Positions 4,758 through 44,383 of a stretch of 64,000 nt of DNA are shown one piece after another. Origin of the DNA: Stigmatella aurantiaca (GTDB lineage: Bacteria > Myxococcota > Myxococcia > Myxococcales > Myxococcaceae); contig NZ_FOAP01000002.1 in NCBI RefSeq assembly GCF_900109545.1, positions 186,001-250,000 of the forward strand, written 5' to 3'. The translations under genes were made by a program, and so were the position numbers. A model generated the notes under the pieces. The model did not search any database. It worked only from the letters and a program-made list of their open reading frames with translations, and was not told the DNA's origin. Numbering within the stretch: the first letter of the stretch is position 1; each line of letters starts with the position of its first letter.

Positions 4758-7307
4758 ATGTCCCACATCGACTTCGAGACGCTGTTCAAACACTCCCCCA
4801 ATCCGTACATGGTGCTGGATCGCGAGTTCCGGTACGTCTCGGCCAACGAGGCCTATTTGCGGCTCACCGCGAGCCGCTTCGAGGAGCTGCGGGGCCGCAA
4901 CGTCTTCGAGGCTTTCCCGCACGATCCCGACAACCGCGACAACCAGCACGTTCGCCAGCTCCGGGATTCCTTTGTCCGTGTCCTGACCCAGCGGGCCCCG
5001 GACGTCCTGGCGCTGATCCTCTACCGGGTGCCCAAGGAGGTGGACGGCAGGACGGTCGTCGAGGATCGCTACTGGAGCGCGACCCACACCCCGTTGTTCG
5101 ACGCTGCGGGAGAGGTCGCCTACATCCTCCAGCACACCATGGACGTCACGGAGCTCCAGCAGCTCAAGCAGGCCGTCAGGGCCTCACAGGAGCCTCGCTC
5201 GACGCAGATGGAGGCCAACGTCCTGCTCCGGGCGCAGGCCGTCCAAGAAGCCAACCGGATGCTGGACGCGGATCGCCGCCACCTGCTCCGGCTGTTCGAG
5301 CAATCCCCGGGCTTCATGGCGTTCCTGCGGGGACAGCATCACGTGTTCGAGATGGCCAACGCCGCATACCTGCAGGTGGTCGGCCACCGGGACATCACCG
5401 GAAAGACCGTCCGGGACGCGCTTCCCGAGCTCGTGGGGCAGGGCTACTACGAGTTGCTCGACCGGGTGTTCTCCTCGGGAGAGCCCTTCGTTGGCCGGGC
5501 CATGGAGCTGCACGTGCAGCGGCACCCGGGGGCCCCCTTGGAGCAGGCGTGGGTCGATTTCGTGTACCAGCCCATCCGCGACGCCGATGGGACGGTCTCG
5601 GGGATCTTCGTCCAGGGCCACGACATCACCGAGCAGAAGCGCGCTCAGGATGAGCTGCGCAGGTACCGGGAGCACCTGGAAGAGCTGGTTCAGGAGCGCA
5701 CCCACGAGCTGGCACAGAGCGAGGCGGAACGGCAGAAGACCGAGGCCGCGCTGCACCAGGCCCAGAAGATGGAGGCGGTCGGCAAGCTCACCGGCGGGGT
5801 GGCCCACGACTTCAACAACCTGCTCCAGGTCATCAGCGGCAACCTCCAGCTCCTGTACCGGGATGTGACGGGCAACGAGCGGGCCCAGCGGCGCGTGCAG
5901 ACCGCCATTGGCGCGGTGGATCGAGGCGCCCGGCTGGCCTCCCAGCTGCTCGCCTTCGCGCGGCGGCAGCCTCTCGAACCCAAGGTGCTCCACCTGGGCC
6001 GGTTGGTGCGCAGCATGGACGAGCTGCTGCGGCGCGCGCTCGGTGAGAGCATCGAGCTGGAGACGGTCATCGGCGGGGGGCTGTGGAACACCCTGGTGGA
6101 TCCCAACCAGCTCGAGAACGTCCTCTTGAACCTGGCCATCAACGCCCGGGATGCCATGGAAGGGGAGGGCAAGCTCACCATCGAGGCGGGCAACGCCATG
6201 CTGGATGACCACTACGCCCTGCTGCATCCGGATGTGACGCCGGGCCAGTACGTGGTCCTGGCCGTCTCGGACACGGGCTGCGGCATGTCCCCCGAGATCC
6301 TGGAGCGGGCCTTCGAGCCGTTCTTCACCACCAAGACGGAAGGGCGCGGCACGGGCCTCGGGCTGAGCATGGTGTATGGCTTCGTCAAGCAGACCGGGGG
6401 CCACATCAAGATCTACAGCGAGGTCGGCCACGGGACGACGATCCGCATCTACCTGCCGCGCACGCTCCAGGCCGAGGTGAGCCTGCCGGAGATCGTCACC
6501 GGCCCCATCGAGGGCGGCTCCGAGACAATCCTGGTGGTCGAGGACGACGCGGAGGTGCGCACCACCGTGGTGGAGCTGCTGACGGAGCTGGGCTACCGCG
6601 TGCTCAAGGCCAACGATGGCCAGATGGCGCTGGCGGTCCTCCAGAGCGGGATGCCCATCGATCTGGTGTTCACGGACGTGGTCATGCCCGGCCCGGTGCG
6701 CAGCCCCGAGCTGGCCCGGCAGGCCAAGGCGCTCTTCCCGAACATCCAGGTGCTGTTCACCTCGGGCTACACGGAGAACGCCATCGTCCACGGCGGACGG
6801 CTGGACCCGGGCGTCAGCCTGCTGAGCAAGCCCTACCGGAAGGAGGATCTCGCCCGGAAGCTGCGCCAGATGTTCCGGCAGCCCCCGCTGGTGGCGCCCA
6901 CCCCAGCCACCTCCCCCCAGGCGAAGGCGTCCCATCGCGTGCTGCTCGTGGAGGATGACGAGGCCATCCGGTCCTCCGCGCTGGAGCTGCTGGATGGGTT
7001 GGGGCACCGCGTGCTGGCCGTCGAGAGCGCGGAGCAAGCCCGCGAGATGCTCGCCACGGACCACTTCGACATCCTGTTCACGGATGTGAGCCTGCCAGGC
7101 CAGTCCGGCGTGGATCTGGCCCGGGAGGCGGTTCACCGCGCCCCGGGCCTGAAGGTCATCATCGCCTCGGGGTACGGCATGTCCCTGACGCCCGAGCAGG
7201 AGACCGGGATGGGCCGCGCCGTGCTGCTGCCCAAGCCGTATGACCTGGCCGGGATTGGCCGGGCGCTGGCCCAGCTCGACGGCGCGGACGCCATGGCCGC
7301 GGGCTAA
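4758..7307 (+). CDS. PAS-PAS hybrid sensor histidine kinase with two C-terminal receivers
   Basis: An 849-residue soluble hybrid kinase with no membrane segment. Order: PAS ~5-130 (SPNPYMVLDREFRYVSANEAYLR), PAS ~175-300, coiled linker, HisKA with phospho-accepting His in GVAHDFNNLLQ (~355), HATPase_c ~470-580 (N box NLAINARDAM, G boxes DTGCGMS and GRGTGLGLS), receiver 1 ~590-710 (VVEDD, phospho-site D in VFTDVVMPG), and receiver 2 ~730-845 (VEDDEA, FTDVSLPG, LLPKPYD). Autophosphorylation with internal phosphorelay is expected; the signal is unknown. Its stop overlaps the stop of convergent mltG by four bases. Confidence 0.9.
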   Translation: MSHIDFETLFKHSPNPYMVLDREFRYVSANEAYLRLTASRFEELRGRNVFEAFPHDPDNRDNQHVRQLRDSFVRVLTQRAPDVLALILYRVPKEVDGRTVVEDRYWSATHTPLFDAAGEVAYILQHTMDVTELQQLKQAVRASQEPRSTQMEANVLLRAQAVQEANRMLDADRRHLLRLFEQSPGFMAFLRGQHHVFEMANAAYLQVVGHRDITGKTVRDALPELVGQGYYELLDRVFSSGEPFVGRAMELHVQRHPGAPLEQAWVDFVYQPIRDADGTVSGIFVQGHDITEQKRAQDELRRYREHLEELVQERTHELAQSEAERQKTEAALHQAQKMEAVGKLTGGVAHDFNNLLQVISGNLQLLYRDVTGNERAQRRVQTAIGAVDRGARLASQLLAFARRQPLEPKVLHLGRLVRSMDELLRRALGESIELETVIGGGLWNTLVDPNQLENVLLNLAINARDAMEGEGKLTIEAGNAMLDDHYALLHPDVTPGQYVVLAVSDTGCGMSPEILERAFEPFFTTKTEGRGTGLGLSMVYGFVKQTGGHIKIYSEVGHGTTIRIYLPRTLQAEVSLPEIVTGPIEGGSETILVVEDDAEVRTTVVELLTELGYRVLKANDGQMALAVLQSGMPIDLVFTDVVMPGPVRSPELARQAKALFPNIQVLFTSGYTENAIVHGGRLDPGVSLLSKPYRKEDLARKLRQMFRQPPLVAPTPATSPQAKASHRVLLVEDDEAIRSSALELLDGLGHRVLAVESAEQAREMLATDHFDILFTDVSLPGQSGVDLAREAVHRAPGLKVIIASGYGMSLTPEQETGMGRAVLLPKPYDLAGIGRALAQLDGADAMAAG

Positions 7308-8320
7308 TAGACGTTGTACTTGGCCCGCAGCTGCTCGTGCTCCTGGGCGTTGCGCGAGGGGCGGAGCTTCCGCTGCGCGTCGTGCAGGTAGTACCAGTAG
7401 TCGCTGGCCTGGGGGCGGAGCGCCGCGAGGAGCGAGTCCACGGTGGGCGCGCCAATGGGGCCCGGGGGCAGCCCGGGGCGGGTGCGGGTGTTCCAGGCGT
7501 CCGTGTTGTCGCGCAGCTTCTTCAGGAACTCCTTGCGATCATTCCACTCCACGAGCTCGTAGCGGCTCGTGGCATCGACGCCCAGGGGAAAGCCCTTGTC
7601 GATGCGCTTCCAGAGAATCCCGGCCACCAGGGGCCGCTGCTCCGGCAGGGGCTCCTCGCGCTCCAGCATGGAGGCCATCACGACGATGTCGTGCAGGCTG
7701 CGCTTGCCCGCTTCGATCTCGGTCTTGTGCACGTCATAGAAGCGCACCCCGAAGGTGTTGAGCTGCCGCTGGATGAAGTCGTGCACGTTGAACCCCTCGG
7801 GCACCACCCCGTAGGTCTCCGGGTAGAGGTAGCCCTCCAGGGTGCGCGTGGGCAGCGGGAACGAGGCCTGGAAGCGCGCGGGGCGGCTCGCCGCGGCGAT
7901 GTACTCGCCCGCCTTGATGAGCCCCTTGGCGGTGAGCGCCTCGTCGGTGTCCCGCAGCCGCCACCCTTCGATCATGACGAACGGGATGTCCTCGGGGAGC
8001 GGGGGGCTCTCCAGCACGTTGGCGATCTCCACGATGGGCATGGAGGCGCGCAGCTTGAAGCGGCCGGCCTTCAGCGCCAGGCCCCCGCGCCGCCAGAGGT
8101 GGTAGCGCCACAGCCGCGGATCATCGATGAAGCCCTGCGCCTGGAGCTCCGGACCGAGCGCCCGGGCCGTCGTCCCTTTCTTCACCACAAAGACGACCTC
8201 GGGCGCGCCGCTGGCGAGCTTCGGCGTCTTCGTCCCACGCTCCGCCCACAGGTACGCACCCGCGACGGCGGCAACCCCCAGGACGGCGAGCCCAAGAACC
8301 ACGATGAGGAGCTTCTTCAT
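7304..8320 (-). CDS. mltG: endolytic murein transglycosylase MltG (YceG-like)
   Basis: A 338-residue inner-membrane lytic transglycosylase that cuts nascent glycan strands and ends their elongation. It begins MKKLLIVVLGLAVLGVAAVAG, a single N-terminal anchor, which fixes the start at 8320; upstream in-frame codons lack sense. A LysM-like region follows (VVFVVKKGTTARALGPEL). The YceG core has the catalytic Glu in VMASMLEREE, then GILWKRIDKGFPLGVDATSRY and PGLPPGPIGAPTVDSLLAAL. Length and motifs fit the family well. In many genomes it sits near fatty-acid or thymidylate genes, but here it stands alone. Confidence 0.93.
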   Translation of the reverse strand: MKKLLIVVLGLAVLGVAAVAGAYLWAERGTKTPKLASGAPEVVFVVKKGTTARALGPELQAQGFIDDPRLWRYHLWRRGGLALKAGRFKLRASMPIVEIANVLESPPLPEDIPFVMIEGWRLRDTDEALTAKGLIKAGEYIAAASRPARFQASFPLPTRTLEGYLYPETYGVVPEGFNVHDFIQRQLNTFGVRFYDVHKTEIEAGKRSLHDIVVMASMLEREEPLPEQRPLVAGILWKRIDKGFPLGVDATSRYELVEWNDRKEFLKKLRDNTDAWNTRTRPGLPPGPIGAPTVDSLLAALRPQASDYWYYLHDAQRKLRPSRNAQEHEQLRAKYNVY

Positions 8321-8444
8321 GCGCCGGAAGCTACCAAAGCTCCGCCAGGGCGGGCGCACCGTCGTGCCTCCCCGTGTCCCCCCCAGGAAGGCGCCGGCCA
8401 TCCACCTCTTGACTCCCGGTACGGCCTCCAGGCATCATGATTTC

Positions 8445-8463
8445 GATTTTGATTATCGATATC
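8445..8463 (+). promoter_or_regulatory. Fur-box-like operator upstream of the heme-oxygenase-like gene
   Basis: The 19-mer GATTTTGATTATCGATATC agrees at 14 of 19 positions with the E. coli Fur box (GATAATGATAATCATTATC), in an AT-rich patch inside GC-rich DNA. It overlaps a perfect 12-bp palindrome, ATCGATATCGAT, at 8455-8466. It lies 16 bp before the start codon and 31 bp after a TTGACT hexamer at 8409. Iron control would make sense for a gene related to heme degradation. Fur binding itself is inferred. Confidence 0.45.
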
Positions 8464-8479
8464 GATTCCTGGAGGTCTC

Positions 8480-9259
8480 ATGTCCGCCACCGCCCTGCTG
8501 CGAATCCCTACCGCGTTCACCTCGGGGGTTGAGACTCCCACCGCCCCGGTCCGGGAGGCAGAGCCCCCCCGGCTGCCCTTGTCCAAGCGCCTGGAGGAGG
8601 GGACGGCGGCGCCTCGCCGGGAAGCCGAGCAGACGCTGTTCATGAAGGGGCTGTTCCGGGGGGCGTGGGGCACAGGCGTGTACGGCCAGTTCGTCCGCGG
8701 CCGCCACTACATCACCTACCTCCAGTGCCTGCTGGAGGTGTACGAGGCGCTGGAAGAGGCGCTGGAGTCTCAGCGCACGCACGCGGCGGTGGGCGGGTTC
8801 GTGTTCCCCGAGCTGTGGCGCTCCCACGCCATCCAGGAGGACCTGACGTGCTTCCTGGGTGAGGACTGGCGGGACACGCCGAGGCCGCTGCACCTGACCA
8901 CTACCCACGTGACGCGCATCCAGGAGCTGGTGGAGGAGGCCCCCCACCTGCTCGTGGCGCATGCCTATGTGCGGTACATCCGCGACATCCTGTCGGGGCC
9001 CATGCTGGGCAACATGGTGGCGCGGGCGTTCGATCTCACCGACGGGGAGGGGATTGCCCTGTACCAGTCGGTGGGGCCGAGTTCCTTGGAGATCTTCCAG
9101 CGCCGGGTGAGCCGCAACATGGACGCGCTCAACCTCTCCGATGACCAGATGCGCGAGGTGGTCCAGGAAGCGCGGCTCGCCTTCCGGATGGAGATCCAGC
9201 TCTCCGACGCGCTGTCGCGGGGGGCCCTCGGCATGAGGAGCCCCGATCTGGGCCGGTAG
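8480..9259 (+). CDS. heme-oxygenase-like protein with non-canonical heme site
   Basis: A 259-residue protein that lines up with biliverdin-producing heme oxygenases: AEQTLFMKGLFRG near residue 50, YLQCLLEVYEALEEAL, LLVAHAYVRYIRDILSG and AFRMEIQLSDAL. Two hallmarks are altered. The proximal heme-ligand His (H in TKEVHTQAE of the human enzyme) aligns with Arg in APRREAEQ. The distal helix GDLSGG reads RDILSG. About nine extra residues sit between the first two helices. The start has GGAGG four bases upstream. It may be a diverged heme-binding or HO-fold protein rather than a classic enzyme. A Fur-like site precedes it. Confidence 0.72.
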   Translation: MSATALLRIPTAFTSGVETPTAPVREAEPPRLPLSKRLEEGTAAPRREAEQTLFMKGLFRGAWGTGVYGQFVRGRHYITYLQCLLEVYEALEEALESQRTHAAVGGFVFPELWRSHAIQEDLTCFLGEDWRDTPRPLHLTTTHVTRIQELVEEAPHLLVAHAYVRYIRDILSGPMLGNMVARAFDLTDGEGIALYQSVGPSSLEIFQRRVSRNMDALNLSDDQMREVVQEARLAFRMEIQLSDALSRGALGMRSPDLGR

Positions 9260-9260
9260 C

Positions 9261-10544
9261 TCAGTACGGATAGAGCTCCGAGGCCGCCTGCGCGTCACAG
9301 GACGTCACGGCGGCCGCACACGCGGTGGGTTGGGAGTACATGATCGAGTTGCAGTCCCGGTGGTGGTTGAAGCCGAGGCTGTGCCCGATTTCGTGGATGG
9401 TGACGGTCTTCGTGTGGTGCGCGCCCGCGCGGTACGTCTCGTTCAACTGGATGGTGCTCTTGGTCATGCAGGTGCCCGACCAGTTGTTGTACGCGTACCC
9501 GTACCAGCCGTTGTAGCCATACGCGGCCGCGTAGACCATGACGTCAGAGGTGCCGCTGGCACGCCAGTGGAGGTACAGGCTGTTCGAGACGTTCGTGTAC
9601 ATCCACGCGTTCATGGAGTCGCCGACGGGCCAGTTCGGGCCCGTGAGGTCCGTGAAGGTGATGTTCGCGGGCTTCCGGCACCACTTGTAGCCAAAGAGGG
9701 GAATCCCGCACCAGCTCTGGGCGGACGGCCCCTGGGGCTCTTCCTTCAACTGGGGCACCGGGCGTGACTCGGGGCTCACGTACGCGACGGTCCGCGCTCG
9801 GGCCGCGACCTGTTCGAGCAGCGCGTCGACCGGCTGTCCCACGTGCGCTTCAATTGCGGAGGCATGCCGCGGCACGCTCGCGCCCTGGACAAGGTTGCCC
9901 TCCACGAGGATCCGGCCCCGGGGGCCGCCCGTCACGGCGTAGAGGCCCGCCGTGGCGCTCGCGGCCAGGGGCTGGGTGCCGCCTTGCGGCGTGAGGAAGA
10001 GGACCGACTGCTCGCCCACCTTCGGCAGCGGCTGGTCCTCTGGCGCGAGCGTGCAGCCGTCGGCGAGCAGGCCGCCCGGGAAGATGACGTCCACGGTAGC
10101 GCCCTGCGCGAGCGTGCCGCCCGAGCTCGTCTTGAGCCCCTGCGAGGAGCGCGCCAGGCCGCCAATCCGCACCGTCGCGATGGTCACCGGCAGATCATTA
10201 TAGAGGCCGCTCGCCTCTCCGGTGGGCTGTCCCTCCAGCTTGGACTGCGCATAGGCACGGACGACGTCGAAGCGCGTGGACTCCACCCGGCCGTTGATGA
10301 CCAGCGCGGAGTGGTCGGTCAGCTCCTCGACGGAATCCTCTTCGAGAATCCAGTCGACGGTCAGCGCGTGAGACGTTCCCTCGGCGTGCGTGTGGGAGGG
10401 CACCGGCGTCCCAGGGACCCACGCCGCCACGTGAGCGTCGTCCGGGGTGATGGCGAGCGCCTCATCGCCTTCGGTCTTGGCACATCCCACCACACCCAAG
10501 AGCGCCAACGGCACGGCCCAGGAACGCATGTAGCTCTTCGTCAT
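9261..10544 (-). CDS. secreted matrixin-like zinc metalloprotease (lipoprotein)
   Basis: A 427-residue protein. The signal MRSWAVPLALLGVVGCAK has a good lipobox (VVGC). The C-terminal ~120 residues hold the extended zinc motif HEIGHSLGFNHHRD followed by the Met-turn text SIMYSQP, as in M10-type metzincins: three His bind zinc and the Glu is the catalytic base. The ~260-residue middle region has no recognised domain and may act as a propeptide. I start at 10544; the internal ATG at 10529 is an alternative. It lies 91 bp downstream of the sigma factor on the same strand, and a GGGGAAA/TTTCCCC hairpin occupies the leader. Confidence 0.82.
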   Translation of the reverse strand: MTKSYMRSWAVPLALLGVVGCAKTEGDEALAITPDDAHVAAWVPGTPVPSHTHAEGTSHALTVDWILEEDSVEELTDHSALVINGRVESTRFDVVRAYAQSKLEGQPTGEASGLYNDLPVTIATVRIGGLARSSQGLKTSSGGTLAQGATVDVIFPGGLLADGCTLAPEDQPLPKVGEQSVLFLTPQGGTQPLAASATAGLYAVTGGPRGRILVEGNLVQGASVPRHASAIEAHVGQPVDALLEQVAARARTVAYVSPESRPVPQLKEEPQGPSAQSWCGIPLFGYKWCRKPANITFTDLTGPNWPVGDSMNAWMYTNVSNSLYLHWRASGTSDVMVYAAAYGYNGWYGYAYNNWSGTCMTKSTIQLNETYRAGAHHTKTVTIHEIGHSLGFNHHRDCNSIMYSQPTACAAAVTSCDAQAASELYPY

Positions 10545-10556
10545 GATTGTCTCCGA

Positions 10557-10580
10557 GGGGAAACGCTGCGGTATTTCCCC
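10557..10580 (-). promoter_or_regulatory. Inverted repeat in the metalloprotease leader
   Basis: GGGGAAA (10557-10563) and TTTCCCC (10574-10580) form a perfect 7-bp stem with a 10-base loop, 12 bases before the metalloprotease start codon. It could be an operator, a leader hairpin near the ribosome site, or a weak terminator for the sigma gene; there is no T-run. Confidence 0.35.
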
Positions 10581-10635
10581 TTGGACGAGAACTGGGGAAT
10601 TTCGTCCCACCCGGGAAGTCCGAATTCGAGATCCG

Positions 10636-43198: not shown

Positions 43199-44275
43199 AT
43201 GTTCCTTCGTCTCAACGTGCGTGATGTGTCCCTGGCGTGTGCGTTCGCGGCCAGCGTGGTGAGCGGTTCCACGTTCGCGAGCACCATCAATCAGAACACC
43301 TCGTGGACCATCACGCGCAGCGGCTCCTCCAGCACCTACCGGGTGGTGGCTTACGGCGACTCCATCTTCGCGGGCTACAACGGGAGCCTGTTCAACGTGG
43401 CCCGCCGCGCCTCGCCCTATACCAGCGGCGAGTACCTGGCCCACAAGTGGAACGCCAACGTGGAAGTGGTCCGCCGCACCAAGTCCGGCGCCAGGGCCGA
43501 CGACATCTACAACAACAAGATCATCTCCGAGCGCTCGTACATGCAGGACGCGAAGACGCGCGTCGTGATGTTCGAGATGTGTGGCAATGACTACCTGCAG
43601 GCCCGCAGCGCGTTCTCCGAGCAGACGGGGACCTGTAGCTACAGCGGGCTGGACACGGCGCTGGCCAACTGCACCACGTACATGGAGCGGGGCATGCAGG
43701 CCATCAACCAGTACGCCACCTCCGCCAAGTCCAAGATCATCATGAACATCTACTACCCGGGCTACAACGCGGACAACGTGCAGACGGCCTGCACGGATGC
43801 GTCCACCGGGACGAAGGTGAACCGCCAGCAGAAGTTCCTGCCCTATCTGGCCAAGAGCAACTGGCGCGCGTGCAACCTGGCCGAGAAGTATGGCTTCAAG
43901 TGCGCGGACGCCTTCGCCGAGATGATGGGCTCGGACTACGACTCCAACGGCGACGGCCTGAACGACGTGGACGGGCTGCGCTACAAGAGCGGTGAGTCCG
44001 AGGCCGCCTACGTCACCCGCATCACCACCACCCTGCGCTCGACGCTCCGCGACGCCAACACGCACTACGCCAACAGCAGCACGAGCTTCGACTACATCCA
44101 GTCGGACAACACGCACCCCACCTACTTCAAGTCCACCATCGGCACGGGCTCGGGCTCGGGCGCCTCGGACTTCGCTGACAGCGCCATCTCCGGCGGCAAG
44201 CAGGCCGAGTGGAACAAGTGGGGCCACGAGAAGTCTGGCTGGTCCATCTCCACGTACAACCCGGCCACGCCGTAG
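43199..44275 (+). CDS. secreted SGNH/GDSL hydrolase (tandem copy 1)
   Basis: A 358-residue protein with a signal peptide (SLACAFAASVVSGSTFAS) and GGAGG ribosome site. SGNH blocks are clear: RVVAYGDSIFAGYNG holds the nucleophile Ser, EMCGNDYLQ the block III Asn, and SDNTHPTYF the catalytic Asp/His pair. Six or more Cys suggest disulfides outside the cell. DYDSNGDGLNDVDG looks like a calcium-binding loop. It should be an esterase or lipase-like enzyme with unknown substrate. The next gene is a close duplicate. Confidence 0.85.
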   Translation: MFLRLNVRDVSLACAFAASVVSGSTFASTINQNTSWTITRSGSSSTYRVVAYGDSIFAGYNGSLFNVARRASPYTSGEYLAHKWNANVEVVRRTKSGARADDIYNNKIISERSYMQDAKTRVVMFEMCGNDYLQARSAFSEQTGTCSYSGLDTALANCTTYMERGMQAINQYATSAKSKIIMNIYYPGYNADNVQTACTDASTGTKVNRQQKFLPYLAKSNWRACNLAEKYGFKCADAFAEMMGSDYDSNGDGLNDVDGLRYKSGESEAAYVTRITTTLRSTLRDANTHYANSSTSFDYIQSDNTHPTYFKSTIGTGSGSGASDFADSAISGGKQAEWNKWGHEKSGWSISTYNPATP

Positions 44276-44304
44276 TTCCCGGGCTGGCCCTCACGGACAT
44301 GGTG

Positions 44305-44346
44305 CAATGCGTCAGTGTTTCACGTGTGTGACACGCTGGCGCATTG
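44305..44346 (+). terminator. Long hairpin between the two GDSL genes
   Basis: A 19-bp stem beginning CAATGCGTCAGTG and ending CACGCTGGCGCATTG, with a single mismatch and a few G:T pairs, around a four-base loop. It starts 29 bp after the first stop codon. There is only a weak T-tract (TTAATTT), so it may end transcription or protect the upstream mRNA. Confidence 0.55.
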
Positions 44347-44383
44347 CGTTAATTTCCGGAAGAGACATTTTTACCCGCTTCCC

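Follow-up and report, generated by a model that had tools for sequence, protein, structure and literature searches.

A heme-oxygenase-fold protein lacking the proximal histidine, found behind a Fur-like operator and with a small partner protein in myxobacteria: a probable pseudo-heme-oxygenase

Results

The gene and its assignment to the heme oxygenases

The window considered here, which is the whole 64-kb stretch of DNA that was analyzed, contains a gene for a heme oxygenase (HO)-like protein preceded by a promoter and an operator (Table 1). The protein matches the heme oxygenase profile PF01126 over residues 33-242 (E 1.4e-40, 139.7 bits against a cut-off of 23), while NCBIfam holds no model for it. 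Its top sequence relative in the PDB is the Leptospira enzyme LepHO (5kzl, E 5.9e-29). An AlphaFold model (pLDDT 84, pTM 0.81) has the heme oxygenase fold and superimposes on rat HO-1 with a Z-score of 29.0 and an rmsd of 1.8 Å over 212 residues; profile match and predicted fold together place the protein within PF01126. The family assignment made by eye in a preliminary description of this DNA, which had also proposed a structure prediction, was therefore sound.

Table 1. Coordinates within the window of the HO-like gene and of the signals ahead of it
Feature	Position	Strand	Remarks
-35-like hexamer TTGACT	8409..8414	+	Position conserved upstream of the family's operon
-10-like hexamer CATCAT	8433..8438	+	18 bases past the -35; CATCAT, CATTAT or CATCTT in relatives
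Fur-box-like operator	8439..8463		Overlapping 19-mers GATTTCGATTTTGATTATC (8439) and GATTTTGATTATCGATATC (8445)
Shine-Dalgarno-like TGGAGG	8470..8475	+	Read from the sequence
His-less heme-oxygenase-fold gene	8480..9259	+	Exact ORF, ATG start, 259 aa

The divergent neighbor (7304-8401, minus strand) resembles, by eye, an MltG-type endolytic transglycosylase gene, and the promoter of the HO-like gene lies in the short intergenic gap. On the other side, the end of a convergent metalloprotease-like gene (9261-10610, minus strand), with a HEIGHSLGFNHH motif recognized by eye, is one base from the end of the HO-like gene. A conserved operon with these larger neighbors was considered and rejected, as the neighbors vary between genera.

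A second PF01126 gene of the same genome (contig C19) has kept the proximal His and is followed directly by a gene judged by eye to be phytochrome-like; we therefore take this second gene to be BphO. Most relatives also have both the His-less protein and a BphO. In nine genomes with the His-less protein there is no second PF01126 match, which makes an accessory role to BphO a weak proposal.

Distribution and selection

Relatives of the protein were found in 66 of the 96 genomes of the window's family. The related loci were retrieved when an alignment was used as the query; a single-sequence query retrieved none. The preliminary description had also noted about nine extra residues between helices 1 and 2, and these proved to mark a clade: the insert (nine residues, about 63-71, W-x-x-G-x-Y-G-Q-x) is missing from canonical myxobacterial HOs and unites 51 sequences, the window's and 50 others, from four genera with one copy per genome. 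These genomes comprise 6 of 7 from the window's genus, 2 of 2 Citreicoccus, 16 of 16 Corallococcus and 27 of 27 Myxococcus/Pyxidicoccus (genus names follow GTDB, where the window's genus includes Hyalangium, one genome being Hyalangium versicolor). A sister clade of 11 sequences from three further genera has no insert. In a 71-sequence tree the two clades group together, apart from canonical HOs with His and GDLSGG; the support is moderate (SH-aLRT 85) because the tree search was quick and the branches are long. Searches of plasmids returned ordinary HOs and none of the His-less type. A record titled Comamonas sp. KCTC 72670 (L168) contains a Myxococcus-type copy and is probably mislabeled.

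An alignment of 48 members has 44 invariant columns, and dN/dS ranged from 0.07 to 0.51 over 18 pairs, being below 0.3 in 16 of them, values which indicate that the family is under purifying selection. Residues H76, H143, R146, R209, R232, R236 and R247 are invariant in the insert clade. Arg146 and Arg247 are also invariant in the sister clade and rare among canonical relatives, Arg232 and Arg236 are nearly invariant family-wide, and the sister clade does not conserve H76 and H143.

The heme site

In the phmmer alignment with 5kzl, R46 occupies the column of the heme-ligand His, and R168 and S172 stand opposite both distal glycines of LepHO (G128 and G132), the whole RDILSG segment (residues 168-173) aligning with GDLSGG without gaps; D169 and G173 are retained, and E50 lies opposite Glu19. 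The two substitutions seen earlier by eye, proximal His to Arg and GDLSGG to RDILSG, are thus confirmed by alignment. HO-1 residue numbers and the general roles of Lys179, Arg183, Tyr58, Arg136 and Asp140 were mapped onto the family by alignment. The protein thus has neither the proximal His of a catalytic heme oxygenase nor the glycines corresponding to G139 and G143, while all seven canonical myxobacterial HOs (7/7) have His and Gly in the ligand and distal columns.

The preliminary description had raised conservation of the Arg in orthologues as a check, and orthologues do not conserve it. The insert clade has R at the proximal position in 30 of 51 sequences, H in 10, A in 8, L in 2 and V in 1; this column ranks 160th of 213 columns in conservation and has changed at least six times on the tree. 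Since so variable a column occurs in a protein under purifying selection, this distribution rules out Arg as a conserved replacement ligand, and among the family sequences no conserved substitute was seen on the proximal helix. On the distal side, the Gly139 column (168) is L, Q or R and never Gly (0/51), and the Gly143 column (172) is mostly T, S or A, with Gly in 1 of 51. This side is bulkier in every member of the insert clade: the residue volume summed over three distal positions is 429 Å3 in the window protein, 448 Å3 on average in the clade and 220 Å3 in canonical HOs.

Other parts of the site have been kept. The equivalents of Asp140, Arg136 and Tyr58 (D169, R165 and Y88) show no variation within the window's clade. 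All 11 sister-clade sequences have Leu at the Arg136 equivalent and are variable at the equivalents of Asp140 and Glu29. The propionate-contact positions 207 and 211 (Lys179 and Arg183 equivalents) are not conserved. Taken together, the sequences and the model indicate that the heme oxygenase fold is retained and the catalytic site lost. With the fold kept, the His ligand gone and the gene conserved, the protein has the characteristics of a pseudo-heme-oxygenase of the AtHO2/PfHO type.

Ten orthologues from a Myxococcus subclade (L035, L036, L041, L043, L044, L045, L048, L049, L050 and L051) have regained a proximal His and keep the bulky distal residues. BphO is absent from 5 of these 10 genomes vs 3 of the 41 others (Fisher one-sided p 0.0045); the genomes are clustered by kinship, so that the difference may reflect one event.

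Promoter and operator

The operator ends 17 bases ahead of the start codon, and its two 19-mers match the E. coli Fur consensus at 14 (GATTTCGATTTTGATTATC) and 15 (GATTTTGATTATCGATATC) of 19 positions on the better strand. All 62 members of the two clades have a -35 element of the form TTGAC or TTGC and, some 18 bases on, a -10 element resembling CATCAT; in 62 of 62 an AT-rich palindrome that agrees with the E. coli consensus at 12-17 of 19 positions overlaps or follows the promoter. A Fur-box-like operator conserved over the promoter, as would be expected of a Fur-regulated gene, is thus present at the level of sequence. Within the 64-kb window the two overlapping sites are the sole ones with at least 14 of 19 matches, and all 26 sites of this quality (26/26) across 324 kb from 18 related 18-kb loci are at the promoter of the HO-like gene or its operon. 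No comparable site precedes the canonical HO genes of relatives or the BphO gene of the same genome (best 12/19), and no Fur-like box was found in the 200 bases upstream of the latter.

We sampled the Fur regulon of the genome by pattern search. The degenerate palindrome GAWWWTGAKWATCRWTWTC has exactly three matches in the 9.37-Mb genome, vs none for a reversed control pattern, and these lie at the HO-like gene, at an unlinked partner gene described below and at a gene for a HmuY-family (heme-binding) lipoprotein. A site with one mismatch lies at a TonB-receptor gene adjoining a nonribosomal-peptide-synthetase-like gene. Fur boxes have been reported on iron-uptake genes of M. xanthus (PMC9548883, PMC11388931); we found no mention of the HO-like gene in the main texts of these two papers.

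A small partner protein

The HO-like start codon shares bases with the stop codon of the gene before it (GTGA/ATGA) in 56 of the 62 genomes, 45 from the insert clade and 11 from the sister clade. This upstream gene encodes a partner protein of 74-90 residues, typically about 80, with the motif C-x-C-G-H-[ILF]-H-L. In the window's genus it is the HO-like gene that directly follows the operator, the partner being unlinked in all six genomes that have the HO-like gene (6/6); in the genome analyzed the partner is a small C-x-x-C-G protein behind the Fur box GAAAATGAGAATCGTTTTC (contig C6, about 44161-44382; L122 6107-6389). The seventh genome of the genus (G040) has neither the HO-like gene nor the partner nor HmuY. 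Across 195 genomes of the phylum the partner occurs in 62 of 62 with the His-less protein vs 11 of 133 without it, as raw counts that ignore kinship.

No family in Pfam or NCBIfam covers the partner. A beta-beta-beta-beta-alpha core is confidently predicted, for which Foldseek gave no convincing PDB fold (best E 0.79); the designed double-psi barrel 7dww is a weak sequence match (E 0.0016). Homologues in genomes without the HO-like gene lie directly upstream of imelysin (PF09375) and di-haem oxidoreductase (PF06537) genes in G046 and G171 (L214 and L221), and elsewhere beside imelysin (G182), fur (G191) or HmuY and a TonB receptor (G105). The partner is thus a candidate for a new iron-regulon family.

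The HmuY-family gene of the same genome (L233 3096-5344, contig C11) is followed by a gene for a 492-aa protein without a Pfam match, and the two stand behind an exact Fur-like palindrome. In G039 (L211 5090-7644) a pair of the same type comes after the partner gene, and the three genes, for the partner, HmuY and a 509-aa protein, run head to tail and overlap at their ends, an arrangement suggestive of joint action. We rejected HmuY as a specific associate of the HO-like gene because it is too common across the family. The family, the Fur-like promoter and the partner gene are points that go beyond the preliminary description.

Discussion

The loss of the His and Gly residues, set against selection on the gene, a Fur-box-like promoter and a partner, suggests that the fold is probably reused non-catalytically during iron or heme starvation. 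We thus regard the protein as probably a pseudo-heme-oxygenase that has lost catalysis and belongs to the iron-starvation response. At low iron, Fur would leave the promoter and the HO-like protein and its partner would both be made; the HO-fold protein would leave the heme ring unopened and may serve in iron or heme uptake as a binding partner of the small protein, as a protein that carries or senses heme or another tetrapyrrole, or as both. The preliminary description had left the choice between heme bound differently, a pseudo-enzyme and another ligand; the pseudo-enzyme is favored because the ligand column drifts among R, H, A, L and V and the distal side is filled, although action on another ligand is conceivable.

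The chief reservation is that Fur control alongside heme uptake is exactly what one would expect of a working heme oxygenase. These genomes have no HO besides BphO, and some lack BphO as well. The invariant equivalents of Tyr58, Arg136 and Asp140 and the ten Myxococcus sequences with a His also speak against a pseudo-enzyme, and the heme could be bound in an unusual way. An active heme-degrading enzyme might hold the heme through another residue, for example H76 or H143, in a shifted pocket; both are invariant in 51 of 51 clade members, the distal polar set Y88/R165/D169 is kept, and a working enzyme would fit the Fur-like promoter and the association with heme-uptake genes. We nevertheless consider this unlikely, as the two His vary in a sister clade that has the same promoter and partner, bulky residues fill the distal side and the proximal helix offers no conserved replacement ligand. 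Alternatively, and as a sub-case of the non-catalytic reading, the protein may carry or sense heme or biliverdin, binding the tetrapyrrole without iron ligation and handing it on or signaling its level. The top Foldseek match of the model is human HO-1 H25R, one structure of which (5btq) contains biliverdin, so that an Arg at this position is compatible with a tetrapyrrole, and the location among heme-uptake genes agrees with such a role. However, the rank of H25R reflects the common fold and is therefore no evidence of function, the substitutions fill the pocket and the propionate contacts are not conserved, and we hold a carrier or sensor to be doubtful.

Two further explanations appear far less probable. 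Metal-dependent HO-like oxidases (HDOs, di-iron) share the fold and use His and carboxylate ligands (PMC13108848), but the conserved buried polar residues here are the canonical HO set, and no new cluster of the HDO kind (three His and three carboxylates) was seen among the invariant residues at the sequence level. The structural matches listed are heme oxygenases, and we think it very improbable that the protein is an HDO or another HO-fold enzyme such as TenA. The missing active-site residues would also be expected if the gene of an iron-scavenging heme oxygenase were decaying into a pseudogene; yet the frame is open in 62 genomes, the dN/dS values given above are low, and new invariant residues and a conserved operator have been maintained, so that decay seems scarcely credible.

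A pseudo-enzyme of this kind has counterparts among known proteins. In AtHO2 (HO2 of Arabidopsis thaliana), as stated in PMC11634067, Arg replaces the proximal His and no HO activity is detectable. AtHO2 is, like the window protein, a member of the HO family with Arg in this place, whereas it is found in plant chloroplasts and has a part in photomorphogenesis, and we describe a bacterial clade with a variable Arg, a Fur-like promoter and a small-protein partner. PfHO of Plasmodium falciparum (8ZLD) has lost the His, has bulky residues in place of the distal Gly-Gly and is essential for apicoplast gene expression (PMC11634067). It resembles the window's family in its retained fold, lost ligand, bulky distal residues and conservation; it differs in its apicoplast role, its 15-20% identity to known HOs and its electropositive N-terminal extension, whereas the window protein is about 30% identical to canonical HOs and has the setting of an iron regulon. 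The iron-scavenging HOs, such as that of Leptospira interrogans (5kzl; roles of G128 and G132 in PMC5542595), share the fold, and the iron-starvation setting would lead one to expect the same role, but these enzymes have the proximal His and distal Gly that are both missing here. The BphO of the same genome is a PF01126 member in the same cell that, unlike the window protein, keeps the His, precedes a phytochrome-like sensor gene directly and has no Fur-like box. Human HO-1 H25R (4wd4, 5btq) has the same substitution at the ligand position, although it is a laboratory mutant with intact distal glycines.

More tentatively, the C-x-C-G-H protein and the dead HO might form a Fur-controlled two-protein module in which the surface of the latter (Arg146, Arg247, Arg232 and Arg236) would be a binding platform, an undescribed heme or iron-starvation system that would operate without heme ligation. 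Within the literature searched, whose coverage is incomplete, we found no description of a bacterial pseudo-HO family with such an operon, and papers linking heme oxygenase and Myxococcus concerned phytochromes or unrelated subjects. Members of the family should not be annotated as biliverdin-producing enzymes. Plants and malaria parasites (Plasmodium) are known to have pseudo-heme-oxygenases; with a family in the bacteria Myxococcus and Corallococcus, whose promoter is apparently iron-responsive and which comes with a partner, the use of the HO fold without heme chemistry would become testable by knock-out.
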